Assembly (NCBI RefSeq): GCF_900142125.1
Contig: NZ_FQZT01000001.1
Location: 558,001 to 622,000 of the forward strand
DNA from: Malonomonas rubra DSM 5091
GTDB taxonomy: Bacteria > Desulfobacterota > Desulfuromonadia > Desulfuromonadales > Geopsychrobacteraceae
Length of the DNA stretch: 64,000 nucleotides
Reading direction: 5' to 3'
In this document: one piece after another, positions 16,418 to 59,053 of the stretch
How the letters are laid out: every line of letters starts with the position of its first letter
Numbering within the stretch: position 1 is the first letter of the stretch
The notes under the pieces: model-generated
The model's database searches: none
What the model saw: the letters and a program-made list of their open reading frames with translations, nothing else
What the model was told of the DNA's origin: nothing
Made by a program: the position numbers and the translations under genes

Positions 16418-17755
16418 ATGTTACCTGCAAAGCAAATCCCAGCAACGACTGCGCCTGCCGTGCATAAATCGCTTGATGTGATGGAAAAACTGCAACTGCT
16501 CTCAACAGCCGCTCGCTACGATGCCGCCTGCGCGTCCAGCGGCAGCACCCGGCAGAACAGCGGAGAAGGATTCGGTGCAGCCCACAACAGTGGCATCTGT
16601 CATTCCTGGTCAGCCGATGGTCGCTGCATCTCGCTGCTCAAAGTTCTCTACAGTAACAACTGCCGCTACGACTGCGCCTACTGTGTCAATCGCCGCTCCA
16701 ACGATCACCGACGCACCAGCTTTACCCCGCAGGAACTGGCACAGTTGACCAGCGAATTTTATCGTCGAAACTATATCGAAGGCCTCTTCCTCAGTTCGGC
16801 CGTGTTCAGCAATCCGGATGACAGCATGCAGCCTCTTTTGCAGACGTTGCGCCTGCTGCGGCAAAATTACCGCTTTCACGGTTACATCCATCTGAAAATC
16901 ATACCCGGCTGCAGTCCTGAGTTGCTCGCTGAAGCGGCCAGGTTGGCCGACCGGATGAGCGCCAACATCGAGTTGCCAAGCGAACAGAGCTTGCGCCAGT
17001 TGGCCCCGGAAAAGGATGAGAGGGAGATTCTGCAGGTTTTTCACCATGTCCACCAGTTGACAGGTGACCACCGTCTGCCTGCCAGGCGGCAAAAAAAGGA
17101 CGGCATCAACCCGGCCGGCATGAGCACGCAGATGATTGTCGGCGCCACCCCGGAGACCGATTTCACCATTCTGCAGCGTGCCGACCTGCTCTATCGCGGC
17201 CCGGGTTTGAAACGGGTTTATTACTCGGCCTATATCCCGGTCAATGCCGACAACCGCCTGCCAACGGTCTCGACCACCCCGCCGCTGCTGCGTGAACACC
17301 GGCTTTACCAGGCCGACTGGCTGCTGCGTTTTTACGATTTCCGTTTGGATGAAATTATCGATCCGGCGCATCCGCAGCTTGAGACCGATCTCGACCCAAA
17401 AGCCGCCTGGGCGCTGCGGCACCTACAGCACTTCCCCCTCGACATCAACCGGGCCAGCAAGGAGGAACTGCTGCGGGTTCCCGGCATCGGCGTGCGCTCA
17501 ACCCTGCGCATCCTCAAGGCCCGCCGCCATACGCGGTTACAGGCGAACGACCTGAAAAAACTCGGCATCGTCATGAAACGCGCGCGCTATTTCCTGCACG
17601 ATGGCCGTCACTACCTCGGAGATGTCCCCCAGCAAGAAGATTTCATCCGCCGGGCGCTGACCTCGGAAACACGAAAACAGGCGAACCGACAACTCAGCTT
17701 CAATTTCGAAACCAGGGTCGAAACAGCGACTTCAGCCATCACTGGAGAGCTGTGA
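16418..17755 (+). CDS. Putative DNA modification/repair radical SAM protein (TIGR03916-like)
   Basis: 445 residues. The radical SAM cluster motif is CRYDCAYC (about residue 82), preceded by CHSWSADGRCISLLKVLYSNN. The C-terminus has a helix-hairpin-helix segment (DINRASKEELLRVPGIGVRSTLRIL), typical of DNA contact. This is the family called 'radical SAM linked to uracil-DNA glycosylase'. The ATG at 16418 has GGAGAG six bases upstream; the TTG one codon before is less likely. Its stop overlaps the start of the partner gene (TGATG), a conserved pairing in this family. The reaction is unknown. Confidence 0.9.
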   Translation: MLPAKQIPATTAPAVHKSLDVMEKLQLLSTAARYDAACASSGSTRQNSGEGFGAAHNSGICHSWSADGRCISLLKVLYSNNCRYDCAYCVNRRSNDHRRTSFTPQELAQLTSEFYRRNYIEGLFLSSAVFSNPDDSMQPLLQTLRLLRQNYRFHGYIHLKIIPGCSPELLAEAARLADRMSANIELPSEQSLRQLAPEKDEREILQVFHHVHQLTGDHRLPARRQKKDGINPAGMSTQMIVGATPETDFTILQRADLLYRGPGLKRVYYSAYIPVNADNRLPTVSTTPPLLREHRLYQADWLLRFYDFRLDEIIDPAHPQLETDLDPKAAWALRHLQHFPLDINRASKEELLRVPGIGVRSTLRILKARRHTRLQANDLKKLGIVMKRARYFLHDGRHYLGDVPQQEDFIRRALTSETRKQANRQLSFNFETRVETATSAITGEL

Positions 17756-18507
17756 TGATCCTGACCTACGACGGTTCCCTGTGCGGATTCCTCTGCCTGC
17801 TCGGTCGCGCGATCAAAGAGCGGATCGATGTCAGTGATATCCAGCGCCGCACACAACCTGGCACGGCCGATCTTTTTGACCAGGAACAACGTATTCACAA
17901 CGACCCCGAATGGGCAGCAAAGGTCGCTTCAGGGCTGGAATCGAAATTGGGAAGAGGCTTCATGATCACTTTCGCCCAAGCGTTCTACAGCGAAGAAGAG
18001 GGGGTTGAAAGTGACCTGTTGGCAGTGACCCGGCGCGCTTTGCGTGAGGGAGCCAGCATCATGAATCATCTGGCCGAACATCCTGTCGGCTGGGTCCATT
18101 TTGTCGCCCAGAAGAGCAACCGCGAACGCCATCGCCTGCTCGGACTGCTGCGTTTTCAGCAGTTAACCGACGGCAGCTACCTGGCTCGCACCAGCCCGCG
18201 CTGCAACGTCGTTCCTCTGCTCGGCAGCCACTTCGCCAAGCGACTCGGTGATCAGCGCTGGTTGATTGTTGATGAAAAACGCAAACTCGGCATCTGGGGG
18301 GAGAAAAGAAAGTGGTCGGTGGTGGAGAATATTGCCATCTCTGAAGAATTGACTTTGCACGACAACGAGCAAAAAGTTGCCGATCTGTGGCGCTGCTTTT
18401 ACCACAACATCAGCAACCCAGGCCGGCACAACCCAAAGTTACGCCAACAGTTCATGCCGAAAATGTACTGGCAGTATTTGACGGAAATGCAACCGTATAT
18501 GCCGTAA
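17755..18507 (+). CDS. TIGR03915-family partner of the radical SAM protein (putative DNA repair)
   Basis: 250 residues. Begins MILTYDGSLCGFLCLLGRAI and contains HFVAQKSNRERHRLLGLLRF, CNVVPLLGSHFAKRLGDQRWLIVDEKR and the C-terminal NPKLRQQFMPKMYWQYLTEM. These match the TIGR03915/DUF4130 family, elsewhere found fused or adjacent to uracil-DNA glycosylase-like domains. No such glycosylase domain is present here. It is translationally coupled to the radical SAM gene by the TGATG overlap. Biochemical role undetermined; DNA repair is inferred from family context only. Confidence 0.86.
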   Translation: MILTYDGSLCGFLCLLGRAIKERIDVSDIQRRTQPGTADLFDQEQRIHNDPEWAAKVASGLESKLGRGFMITFAQAFYSEEEGVESDLLAVTRRALREGASIMNHLAEHPVGWVHFVAQKSNRERHRLLGLLRFQQLTDGSYLARTSPRCNVVPLLGSHFAKRLGDQRWLIVDEKRKLGIWGEKRKWSVVENIAISEELTLHDNEQKVADLWRCFYHNISNPGRHNPKLRQQFMPKMYWQYLTEMQPYMP

Positions 18508-54061: not shown

Positions 54062-55033
54062 GTGACCCAGGAAGCCCAATCGAGCATGCTGCACCGCGCC
54101 CGTCTGAAAGCACTTTTCAAGCGGATCATCGTGACGATTTTTATCTTCGTTCTCTGCTACAGCGCTATCGCCATGGTTTACGCCAGCAAAACCTTTTACA
54201 AAGTTCGGCAAAATTATGCCTTTATCCTCGAGACACTGAGCGGCGAACGGAAAGCGGTCAGCCGTGTCGGTTGGCATATCCGCCTGCCGATCTTCACCAA
54301 ACTGGAGCTTGAAGTGCCATTGATGAACCAGGAGCTGCACCTCGGCAATTCGATCGAACCGAAAAGGATCATGTCGAGGGGAAACGTTGCTCTCTGGACC
54401 AGTGCCATGCTCACCTACCGGATTCGCGATCTGCACCGCTGGGGGATTGAAAATCGCTCCCCCCTAACCCTGCTGCAGACCGATTTTGACGGCATTGTGA
54501 AAGACGTGATGCAGGGAGAAACTATCAACGAACTGATTTCCGACCGGGTACGGATAAAGGAACAAATCTACCGCACCCTGAAAGATACCCCGATCAACGA
54601 AGGCGGCCTGACCCTGGAAGAGAAATACGGCATCGAGGTGATATCTTTTGTCCTGCGCGATACCCGCTACGGTGAAAAGCTGGCCGCTGCCAGTGAGGAG
54701 AAGAAACGCCGTGAACTGATTGCTGAAGCGGAAAACTATGCCGCCGACCTCGAAGCAAGCCGAACCCGCAAGCTTTACGCCGCCTACAGTGAATCGATCC
54801 AGCAGATGCGCCAGTCGCTCGGCATCAGCAGCGCAAACGACCCGTCACTCTTTGATTTTCTCAATCAGCAGAAGTGGGCGGCCGCGTACGAGAAAAATCA
54901 ACAAGGGCAAAACACTTTCGTCCTTAACAACACTGCGACGGCAGTTCCTGTGACCTTACCATCGGCGGTCACCTCGATGCCGCAAGCGGCGGAAGAAGAC
55001 CCCAGAGGACTTCCTTATGCCCCAAAGCCGTAA
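54062..55033 (+). CDS. SPFH-domain membrane protein coupled to the AAA-AAA-Lon protein
   Basis: 323 residues. One N-terminal transmembrane helix (IIVTIFIFVLCYSAIAMVY), then a prohibitin-like SPFH domain (NYAFILETLSGERKAVSRVGWHIRLPIFTKLE, WTSAMLTYRIRDLHRWGIEN, GEKLAAASEEKKRRELIAEAENYAADLEASR in part), and a variable tail with Pro/Ala. It is distinct from HflK and HflC in this window. GTG start, with AGGAGG six bases ahead. Its end overlaps the next gene by 17 bases, so stoichiometric coupling with the AAA-Lon protein is expected. Confidence 0.87.
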   Translation: MTQEAQSSMLHRARLKALFKRIIVTIFIFVLCYSAIAMVYASKTFYKVRQNYAFILETLSGERKAVSRVGWHIRLPIFTKLELEVPLMNQELHLGNSIEPKRIMSRGNVALWTSAMLTYRIRDLHRWGIENRSPLTLLQTDFDGIVKDVMQGETINELISDRVRIKEQIYRTLKDTPINEGGLTLEEKYGIEVISFVLRDTRYGEKLAAASEEKKRRELIAEAENYAADLEASRTRKLYAAYSESIQQMRQSLGISSANDPSLFDFLNQQKWAAAYEKNQQGQNTFVLNNTATAVPVTLPSAVTSMPQAAEEDPRGLPYAPKP

Positions 55034-58000
55034 AACCAGAGCACCGATCTACGTCAGCCTGTCGGAAGAACGGATCAGGCAGATTGAAGCGCTGGTCTCC
55101 AGCTGGAGCAACGAAACCCGCCGTTTTGTGTTGAGGCGCTTGCACCAGTATACGCCATCCCGCTCGCTGGCCAAACGCCTGTTCCTGTTTCTGCGCAATC
55201 TGGTCAACGAACAGGAGCGCGAATTCGACCTGCTGCAGGACCCCGCCAAACTGAACGACTGGCACAACCGCTTCGAGGCAGCCGGTTCGCAGGATGCAAC
55301 CGCAGCCTGGAACAGAATTCTTTCCAGGGAGCTGGATCAGCAAGACCACCAGTACCTGACCTACCTGCTGGAAAAAGAGACCATCGACACCTTTGTCCCG
55401 CACTCGCTAGCAGAAACCTTTGACAAGCTCTATCACGCCTTCATCATGAAGGAATATTCCGATGATCCGGAAGTGCCGCGCGCACCGCTGGTGCTGGTAA
55501 TCGGCAATTCCGGCAGCGGAAAAAGCGCGACCATCAAACAGGCGATCGAAGAAACATTCTTCTCTTCCGAAGTCACGCCGGTGGTCGATCTGAAAGCGAA
55601 AAAAGATGAAGTGATGGCCAATCAGCCGTTCTGGCGCAGCCTGGCTGAGGTCGACCCTGAACTTGCAGTGCGTATCGAGCACCGCCGGAAAAGAGCAACC
55701 CTGCGCCTGCTGTCACGCCTGCCACTGATCCGTTATATCTTTCGCAACCGTATCAGCGCAGCCCTGTCGACCCTGGACGAAGAAGGTGTACGGGTCGATT
55801 ATGCCATGATCACTCCCAACGACTATCAGACAGCGCTGGCCGGCGAACCGGGCAACTACCTGCGTAAAGCGATGGGACATCCGCGACGACTCTGCCTGCG
55901 CCACATGGAGGAAGCCCACTCCGCGTTCGGCGTGCCGGACGAACGCAGCTCGGTCAAATCACAGCAATCGACACTGGTCGACACGGCCAACATCATCCTC
56001 GACGAAATCGCTCATGGCCGCCGCGACTGCATCCTGATCGCCACCACAGATCAACCGGAACAGCTCGACCCGGCAATCTATCGACGCTTTGTTGAACGTG
56101 GCCTGATCATCGATGTCAACGACATCTGGGAAGATCCGGCCAATCTGCGCGAAGTCGTCTGCCTGGAACTGCGCCGAAAAAACCACCCGAAAGATCCAAC
56201 CGAGCCGCGCCCACCGCACCTGCCAGAAGAAGCCCTCGACCGTGCAGTGGAAAAGCTCTACCCGATTTTCCATCAACGCAGTTTGCGGATTACGCCGGCT
56301 TACGTACGTCGCCTGGTCGACTCCCTGATCACGATCAAAGGCAACTTCCAACCGAAATATCTGGATGACCAGCTGCTGGTACGTGACGCATTGAAGGCGG
56401 TCGCGCGCAATGTTCACGGTTCGATCTACAACAAGGTGGTCGCGCAGATGGACCGTGGCATTGCCTGGAAAGAGTACATCGGCGGAATCAAGAACGAATT
56501 TTCAGAAATGGCCAACAATGCCCTGTTCTACAACATCAACGACGAAAAAGGGGTTGTGCTGACCGGCCCTCCAGGTTCAGGGAAAACTTTCATGGTTCGC
56601 GCCTGGCTGGGAGACAACCACGATGTGCAGGATATCTGCGCAAACCTGACCGACCTGACCGATGTTAACAACCCGTTGGAAGGGATGGTCGCCAACCTGG
56701 AGCGGATTTACGACATCGCCAAAATGATTTCCCCGGCGATGGTTTTCTTCGATGAAGGCGACGCAGTGGCGCCACGCCGTTCACAACAGGGGGGCAGCCC
56801 TTACGACAAGATCACCAACAAGTTCCTCTCGATCATCGATGGAGAAACGCCCCTGCACCGGGTTTTCACTGTGCTCACCACGAACCGGCTCGACATCATC
56901 GATCCGGCTCTGATCCGTTCGAAACGACTTAAGGTGCTCAACGTCACCGGGCATCTGCGCGAAGACGACTGTGCCGACATCGTTGCCCAGGAACTGGAGG
57001 GGATCCCGCTGGAGGAAAATCTCACGGCAGAGGAGATCACCCGCCAGGCAAACGCCCTGTGCGAAACCCCCGCCGACTACACCGCCTATGCTGAAAAAGT
57101 GCGGTCACTGCGCACTACCGAATTGGAAGTCATCCACAAAGCAAAAGAGATTAGTGCTTTCAGCAGCGAAGAAAAGGCTCGTTTTGTGCGCTTTAACTAC
57201 AAAATCCTGCTCGGCCTGCTGGAAGGGATGATTCCCGACTCCAGCCTGACGACAAGTGCCCGACGGGGGGAAGAGGAGCTGCTCGAACGACTGGATGAAG
57301 TGGTCGCCAAGCTGACGGAAATCGAGGATGACAACGACTTCCCGATCACCCGCTGGCACCTGCAGAACGCGCTGCAACAGCTGGCCAACAGTCCTCTTCG
57401 CAAAGGCAAACAGCAGCTTGATGAATTTCTCGAAACCGAACTTTCGGAAGAGCCCCAGGTCGGCTTTGTCGTTGGTGTCGGCGCCAACGATGTCAACGGC
57501 GTCATCCTGCCGATCGCATCGGCGCTGGTCTATCGCATGTTCCCGGAAAAAATCGTCGTCACCGGTGCAGTCTCTTCCAATACAGCCGCCAGTGCGGAGA
57601 TGGATCTGGCAGTGCAGATGACCCATCAGAGTTCGCGTGAAGCGATGACTCTGGTGGAAAGCTATCTGCAGTCACTGCTGCCGGAGGTCAACATCTCACG
57701 CCTGCTGGGTGAATTCCTCGACGGTTACTCTGTACATCATCAGATGCTCTCGGCTTCCTACAACGTCGGCGGGCCATCGGCCGGTTTCGCCCTGGCAATC
57801 AACACCCTGTCGGTACTGGTCAACCTGCCGGTACTGAACGATTTCGGCATCACTGGCGCCCCTTGGATAAAAGGTTCGCGGCGTGGCGAAATCGGCGCCT
57901 CCGTGATCATCGGTGGTCACCACAAAAAGACGGAAAAAGTGCTGCAGTACCTGCAACGGATGTATATGCCGGTTAAGAATTACTACGACATGGGCAACGA

Positions 58001-58343
58001 GGTATTGGCGTCCTATCGCTCTATTGGCAAAGACGTGGTCGCGGTCTCCAGCTTCTCGTCACTGGTGCCGGAAGTTTTCTACATCGACGATAATTTCCGC
58101 CAGCGACAGAACGAATTTTTCCAGCAACGCCTAAGGTTGGAATCAGGCATAAACGAGAAGGATCGTGAGCAGCTTGAACGGGAAAACCGTGTACTGCTGG
58201 CTGAACTGCGTAAGCAGATGGAAGACGAAGTCCGCGCCAGGCTGAAGGCAATCGAGCGGCACATGTGCAACAACGAAAGCCAGTACGAGAGCCTGGAGCG
58301 GATCTTCACTCGCAATCATCAGTCTTCAGGCAACGCAATCTGA
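55017..58343 (+). CDS. Double AAA+ protein with C-terminal Lon-type protease domain
   Basis: 1108 residues. Helical N-terminus (1-150). First AAA+ module: Walker A GNSGSGKS at 163-170, but Walker B is degenerate (LCLRHMEEA, ~293-300); ATTDQPEQL and YRRFVERG follow. Second AAA+ module: GPPGSGKT at 517-524, intact Walker B MVFFDEGDAV (575-584), LTTNRLDIIDPALIRSKR. Last part: Lon (S16) protease fold with Ser921 in GGPSAGFALAIN and candidate Lys970/971 in IGGHHKKTEKV. A coiled coil ends the chain. No transmembrane helix, so membrane contact would be through the SPFH partner. Domain order differs from Lon (one AAA+) and LonB. Role inferred: membrane-associated ATP-dependent proteolysis. Confidence 0.88.
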   Translation: MPQSRKTRAPIYVSLSEERIRQIEALVSSWSNETRRFVLRRLHQYTPSRSLAKRLFLFLRNLVNEQEREFDLLQDPAKLNDWHNRFEAAGSQDATAAWNRILSRELDQQDHQYLTYLLEKETIDTFVPHSLAETFDKLYHAFIMKEYSDDPEVPRAPLVLVIGNSGSGKSATIKQAIEETFFSSEVTPVVDLKAKKDEVMANQPFWRSLAEVDPELAVRIEHRRKRATLRLLSRLPLIRYIFRNRISAALSTLDEEGVRVDYAMITPNDYQTALAGEPGNYLRKAMGHPRRLCLRHMEEAHSAFGVPDERSSVKSQQSTLVDTANIILDEIAHGRRDCILIATTDQPEQLDPAIYRRFVERGLIIDVNDIWEDPANLREVVCLELRRKNHPKDPTEPRPPHLPEEALDRAVEKLYPIFHQRSLRITPAYVRRLVDSLITIKGNFQPKYLDDQLLVRDALKAVARNVHGSIYNKVVAQMDRGIAWKEYIGGIKNEFSEMANNALFYNINDEKGVVLTGPPGSGKTFMVRAWLGDNHDVQDICANLTDLTDVNNPLEGMVANLERIYDIAKMISPAMVFFDEGDAVAPRRSQQGGSPYDKITNKFLSIIDGETPLHRVFTVLTTNRLDIIDPALIRSKRLKVLNVTGHLREDDCADIVAQELEGIPLEENLTAEEITRQANALCETPADYTAYAEKVRSLRTTELEVIHKAKEISAFSSEEKARFVRFNYKILLGLLEGMIPDSSLTTSARRGEEELLERLDEVVAKLTEIEDDNDFPITRWHLQNALQQLANSPLRKGKQQLDEFLETELSEEPQVGFVVGVGANDVNGVILPIASALVYRMFPEKIVVTGAVSSNTAASAEMDLAVQMTHQSSREAMTLVESYLQSLLPEVNISRLLGEFLDGYSVHHQMLSASYNVGGPSAGFALAINTLSVLVNLPVLNDFGITGAPWIKGSRRGEIGASVIIGGHHKKTEKVLQYLQRMYMPVKNYYDMGNEVLASYRSIGKDVVAVSSFSSLVPEVFYIDDNFRQRQNEFFQQRLRLESGINEKDREQLERENRVLLAELRKQMEDEVRARLKAIERHMCNNESQYESLERIFTRNHQSSGNAI

Positions 58344-58873
58344 CTGAACCCCTGAGCCGGCAAACCAAGAGCACTGTTGAACTTGCTCGACAGGTTCTGA
58401 AAACCGATCAATCCGGTCAGCTCGACGATGCCATCATCGTCAAACCAGTTGCGCAAAGTAGCGACCATTTCGTCGCTGACCTGGCTTTCTGAGAGGGTCA
58501 TCGCTTCGGTATACTCAAGCACCGCTTTTTCCTGATCGCTGAACAAGTCGCTCTGGCGCCAATATTCCAAAGCCTGAACTTTTTCCATCGAACCACATCG
58601 ACGCGCCAGCACGGACGCGTTGATATCGGTTCAGAAATTACACCAGTTCAACTGCGACACCCGCACCGTGATCATCGAGCGCAATATCGGGTTGACCGGT
58701 GAGCTACGACGGTCAAGTACTCCATAAAGAGCCGCAACAGCGGCAAAGAGTTTCGGCTCACGCGCCCAAGCTAAAGCAGGTTTCAACAGTTGTCCGTATG
58801 TCCGCTTCTGTTTCCAGAAAAAAGGTTTCAGATACCAAGGGTACTGCTGATATTCTTTAAGTTTGATTCGCAT
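58319..58873 (-). CDS. Carboxymuconolactone decarboxylase-family selenoprotein with CxxU motif (Sec81)
   Basis: 184 residues if TGA at 58631-58633 encodes selenocysteine. The same frame continues on both sides: SQLNWCNF-U-TDINASVLARR, where relatives of the AhpD/CMD family have WCxFCxDxN. Thus the resolving or peroxidatic cysteine of the CxxC pair is replaced by Sec. The downstream half (MEKVQALEYWRQS, VLEYTEAMTLSESQVSDEMVATLRNWFDDDGIVELTGLIGF when read in parts) is a normal CMD C-terminus. A SECIS-like hairpin with bulged U follows. ATG at 58873 has GAGGTG upstream. Convergent with, and overlapping by 25 bases, the AAA-Lon gene. Likely thiol-dependent peroxidase or disulfide reductase. Confidence 0.88.
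58597..58624 (-). promoter_or_regulatory. Candidate bacterial SECIS element
   Basis: Six bases after the in-frame TGA: ATC-A-ACGCG-T-CC / GG-CGCGT-C-GAT around loop GTGCT. Ten pairs, one A-C mismatch and a bulged U below the two pairs closing a five-base loop, as in the E. coli fdhF SECIS. Confidence 0.75.
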
Positions 58874-59053
58874 CCGGCTCACCTCAGGTCAACAAAGGAG
58901 TTAAGAGTCACTGGAAGTTTAGCAGAGAGAGTAGCAGTTTTCCCGTCATCCTCTGCCAAGCCGAGAAAACAATTGCCTTTTTATTAACAATAATAAATAA
59001 TATCTTGATAATTTCAGTTTGTTTTTCTGGAAGAACAAAGGAGCCTGAGGCCT

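Follow-up and report, generated by a model that had tools for sequence, protein, structure and literature searches.

A gene of the CMD/AhpD fold on the minus strand of the analysed window (a stretch of 64,000 nucleotides from Malonomonas rubra DSM 5091) is very probably a genuine selenoprotein gene with selenocysteine (Sec) at codon 81. Its sequence relationships indicate a recent replacement of Cys by Sec within this Desulfuromonadales lineage. Predictions of CxxU selenoproteins in the CMD/AhpD superfamily go back to 2005 (PMC1088965, PMC2398784, PMC9312934, PMC13188914), the sequence-only reading had noted such predictions for AhpD-like proteins of environmental and deltaproteobacterial genomes, and such switches are known in bacteria. 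The value of this gene lies in a clean and apparently recent change from Cys to Sec, for which a SECIS was newly formed.

The predicted coding sequence has 184 residues (58319–58873, minus strand), with the ATG start at 58871–58873 and a TGA stop at 58319–58321. A Shine-Dalgarno-like GAGGTG (58880–58885, minus strand) is located 6 nt upstream of the ATG, and a promoter scan picked out a single weak minus-strand candidate upstream. The sole interruption of the frame is the TGA at codon 81 (58631–58633, minus strand), which is found in the context WCNF-U-TDIN. Cys78 (TGT, 58640–58642, minus strand) opens the CxxU motif. The match to the Pfam CMD domain PF02627 crosses the TGA (residues 43–126 of P0001, corresponding to 40–123 from the ATG) and scores 35 bits against a Pfam cut-off of 23, which places the protein in the CMD superfamily. 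The coordinates and the single frame broken only by TGA, both described from the sequence alone, hold at start, TGA and stop. The same is true of the same-family sequence on either side of the TGA, since PF02627 spans it and the orthologue from the same genus aligns over 185 residues. The sequence-only reading expected automatic annotation to split the gene or call it a pseudogene; the mechanical ORF list gives pieces of 83 and 97 codons instead of one frame. Two separate genes (97 and 83 amino acids) were ruled out, as the Pfam domain extends across both pieces and so do the orthologues. General recoding of UGA was ruled out because the gene's own end is TGA TGA.

The 3' end of the gene overlaps a large Lon-like protease gene (55017–58343, plus strand) tail-to-tail by 25 nt (58319–58343). 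Around the orthologue of the same-genus relative (L025) the neighbours and their order are identical. No recurrent flanking partner hinting at a substrate was found among the genes neighbouring the orthologues, and an Rfam scan of the region returned chance matches only.

The TGA occupies the position of the second Cys of the WCxFC motif, as had been proposed. In the 80 nearest loci of the species-genome collection, mostly from Pseudomonadota, the codon in this column is TGT (53) or TGC (27), so that all 80 orthologues carry Cys. The same-genus orthologue (76% identity over 185 residues) has TGT, and throughout the family (44 genomes) and the order (136 genomes) all orthologues with 63–76% identity have Cys. 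In the same family and order genome sets, six distant relatives with about 30% identity have TGA in this column, in the context ECxFU or ECRYU. The column thus holds Cys or Sec in the homologues; the random residues that would have pointed to a nonsense mutation were never seen among them. Within the same order, CMD selenoproteins with ECxFU make up a group of their own (L032, L033, L034, L035, L036 and L037), and most members have a hairpin with a CGUGA loop 24 nt from the UGA. No second Sec sequence of the WCxFC subfamily was detected in any other genome searched. A strict Sec DNA pattern matched this gene alone in 395 genomes of the phylum, and no relatives were found on viral contigs.

The genome (a 3.96-Mb assembly, completeness 100) encodes the machinery for Sec insertion. 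The genes selA, selB and selD are clustered on the same contig as the window (L018), SelA and SelD being recognised by sequence within the cluster, without profile scoring. A tRNA-Sec (selC) with the anticodon UCA scores 69.9 bits. All four genes named for checking in the sequence-only reading are therefore present, and the absence of selB or selC, which would have spoken against a selenoprotein, does not apply. At least four other selenoprotein genes occur in the genome, this count being a minimum: SelD, FdhA and two further CMD proteins. Judged by sequence, SelD is a Sec protein too (SGUAAK; gene at L018:7173–8123, minus strand, and upstream), and the mechanical ORF of selD begins only after the TGA. 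The gene for FdhA, the formate dehydrogenase alpha subunit, contains an in-frame TGA (QARIUHSATV; L128, C22 near 17236–17997, minus strand) and is located about 10 kb from the tRNA-Sec and molybdenum-cofactor genes. The CMD genes with in-frame TGA have the CxxU motifs CEPU (GCEPUVEH; L008:1501–1737, C38) and CVHU (GCVHUTATH; L021:4024–4419, minus strand, C29).

Directly at the UGA, a putative bSECIS hairpin of 45 nt (58589–58633, minus strand) is predicted with an energy of −23.3 kcal/mol. The 48 nt from the UGA onwards fold with the same energy, and 49 nt give a z-score of −3.4. In the 80 Cys orthologues this stretch reaches −8.6 kcal/mol on average and −16.4 kcal/mol at best, and none equals the M. 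rubra gene. Equally stable folds are rare both among synonymous recodings of the same peptide (3 of 5000) and among coding 48-mers of the window (3 of 1150). The apical loop is CGUGCU (58608–58613, minus strand), or GUGCU in a form with a bulged U. The hairpin reported by the sequence-only reading is real, and the bulged U with a five-base loop is possible as a suboptimal, near-equal form (−22.6 kcal/mol). The actual hairpin, on the other hand, is longer and starts at the UGA itself and not six bases after it.

In the published bSECIS model (PMC13188914) a loop of 3–9 nt with G in loop position 1 or 2 is found 16–37 nt from the UGA, on an upper stem of 4–16 bp and with a minimum free energy at or below −7.5 kcal/mol. 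The hairpin passes this check: its loop has 5–6 nt with G first or second, the spacing is 17–18 nt, and the energy without the UGA is −17.9 kcal/mol. As in the model, G is followed by U near the start of the loop (PMC13188914). This rule is weakly specific, as 29 of the 80 Cys orthologues pass at −7.5 kcal/mol, and it was rejected as proof by itself. In some register, two Cys orthologues even surpass the energy of the M. rubra hairpin. Counting the U of UGA as position 1, the loop G is at position 22. The same register is found in the genome's own FdhA (loop GGUCU, positions 22–26) and CEPU gene (GUU, 22–24) as well as in E. coli fdhF (GGUC, 22–25).

Two residues that are private to this protein take part in the stem. 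In the lower stem, GGU is the pairing partner of the Thr82 codon (ACC, 58628–58630, minus strand); all 80 orthologues have Val, Ile or Met at this residue. The codon of Cys93 (TGT, 58595–58597, minus strand) pairs with the Asp-Ile codons; nearly all orthologues have Ala, Ser or Thr and none has Cys. With Val and Ala codons put back at positions 82 and 93, the hairpin weakens to −16.1 kcal/mol. Judged from these comparisons, the SECIS hairpin appears to have been built partly by synonymous and partly by amino-acid changes.

A premature stop in a young pseudogene would also account for a TGA that is seen in this subfamily in one genome only. In addition, the protein has more private residues than most orthologues (8 versus a median of 2), including the loss of a conserved C-terminal Cys. 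The TGA, however, falls exactly on an invariant redox Cys. Near-invariant Cys is found in only three of 184 columns (78, 81 and 177), which gives a random nonsense codon a chance of only about 1.6% of striking a conserved Cys. The strong hairpin in SECIS register, to which two private residues contribute, is likewise confined to this sequence, and the organism has the insertion machinery and other selenoprotein genes with in-frame TGA. Compared with the four nearest Cys relatives in the family, dN is 0.13–0.24 and dS is above 2 or saturated. On either side of the TGA, third-position changes are three to seven times as numerous as second-position changes. Relative to the same-genus sister, the gene shows no faster evolution before the TGA and only a slight acceleration after it. 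These patterns indicate that purifying selection acts on both halves, which makes a pseudogene highly improbable. A sequencing or assembly error in an ordinary Cys protein is scarcely credible. TGA is one base away from the Cys codons TGT and TGC, and all orthologues have one of these, but an error would not yield a matched hairpin together with the codons of Thr82 and Cys93, which are private to this gene and are paired within it.

Within a selenoprotein, the direction of the change can be read from the tree. The gene and the same-genus Cys sequence form a pair (SH-aLRT 90) within a five-member clade (99), which is itself part of a Cys clade (97), and the tree requires two or more origins of Sec. 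Since the gene is nested among Cys sequences, Sec most likely took the place of Cys in this lineage. The published criterion for a Cys-to-Sec conversion is one Sec sequence standing alone amid Cys sequences both near and distant (PMC1794560), and the sequences place this gene in that class. Sec as the ancestral state of the subfamily, with the relatives having gone to Cys, is very unlikely. The more distant CMD relatives of the same order do carry Sec in this column, but 80 of 80 nearest orthologues have Cys with the gene nested among them, so that many parallel losses would be required. Furthermore, the nearest relatives lack a comparable hairpin at this site despite the tRNA-Sec in their genomes. 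As Cys-bearing relatives within the family also possess tRNA-Sec, a switch from Cys to Sec needed no new machinery. Such a switch agrees with a published trend in thiol-redox families, where changes from Cys to Sec predominate (PMC1794560).

The known AhpD-like CxxU selenoproteins of the CMD superfamily (COG2128 YciW, PF02627) share the fold, Sec as the second residue of CxxU and a predicted bSECIS right after the UGA. They differ from the present case in that its WCxFC subfamily is otherwise all Cys among the sequences examined. TIGR01926 (peroxidase-related enzyme), which a 2026 review (PMC13188914) assigns to the AhpD-like selenoprotein as its model, does not include the protein (49.4 bits versus a cut-off of 81.8), whereas the CVHU protein of the same genome scores above this cut-off. 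The best-scoring curated family is NF053654 (YciW-related (seleno)protein), which matches over nearly the whole length with 138.2 bits, far below the cut-off of 310. The Cys orthologues score similarly (127–147 bits). No curated NCBIfam selenoprotein family has a cut-off that the WCxFC subfamily reaches.

The AlphaFold2 model (38 sequences) has a pLDDT of 93.5. The top structural matches (Z 20–23) are AhpD-like peroxidase-related proteins, with 2PRR, 6K40 and 2OYO at about 22. The debrominase Bmp8 (PDB entries 6OHI and 6OHJ) is also similar (profile match with E of about 1e-12, structural Z of 20.5). Its identity, however, is only 18%, and a halogenated substrate finds no support in the present protein. 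M. tuberculosis AhpD and P. aeruginosa PA0269 (PMC3141380) have in common with it the all-helical AhpD-like fold and a CxxC-type centre, here in the CxxU form. PA0269 uses Glu36, Cys48, Tyr50, Cys51 and His55 (PMC3141380). In the sequence alignment these residues correspond to Ser66, Cys78, Phe80, Sec81 and Asn85, respectively, and the subfamily shows no variation at Phe80 and Asn85. The two redox residues are thus kept, but the AhpD proton relay, formed around CxxC by Glu, Tyr/His and His, is not.

With Ser, Phe and Asn in place of the relay residues, the canonical AhpD peroxidase mechanism is doubtful. Of the earlier proposal of a Sec-dependent thiol peroxidase or disulfide reductase, the Sec protein of the CMD fold stands and the peroxidase part is questionable. 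Reduction of a peroxide or a disulfide is the best guess for the activity, held with slight preference. The ribosome would read UGA 81 as Sec with the aid of tRNA-Sec and of SelB attached to the hairpin that immediately follows. Sec81 and Cys78 would form a CxxU redox pair close to where a helix begins. At neutral pH Sec81 would be ionised without help and would attack an oxidised or electrophilic substrate, e.g. a hydroperoxide or a disulfide. It would then join Cys78 as a selenenyl sulfide, which a cellular thiol donor would reset.

The switch may have had a price. At position 177 the protein has Ser (QGFC to QGFS; 58343–58345, minus strand), where 79 orthologues have Cys. It is about an even bet that, as the cost of building the SECIS, the lineage tolerated two residues seen in none of the orthologues (Val to Thr82, immediately following the active-site Sec, and Ala to Cys93) and that it dropped Cys177, Sec having made the second thiol dispensable or having moved it. 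More speculatively, the change of Cys177 to Ser may mean that Sec altered how the enzyme is reset.

A gene of this kind is liable to be split or discarded by automatic annotation. Together with the 76% identical Cys sister from the same genus and the 80 Cys orthologues, the Sec gene constitutes a clean natural pair for comparing Sec and Cys in a CxxC enzyme. The same comparison bears on the origin of a SECIS inside a coding sequence.
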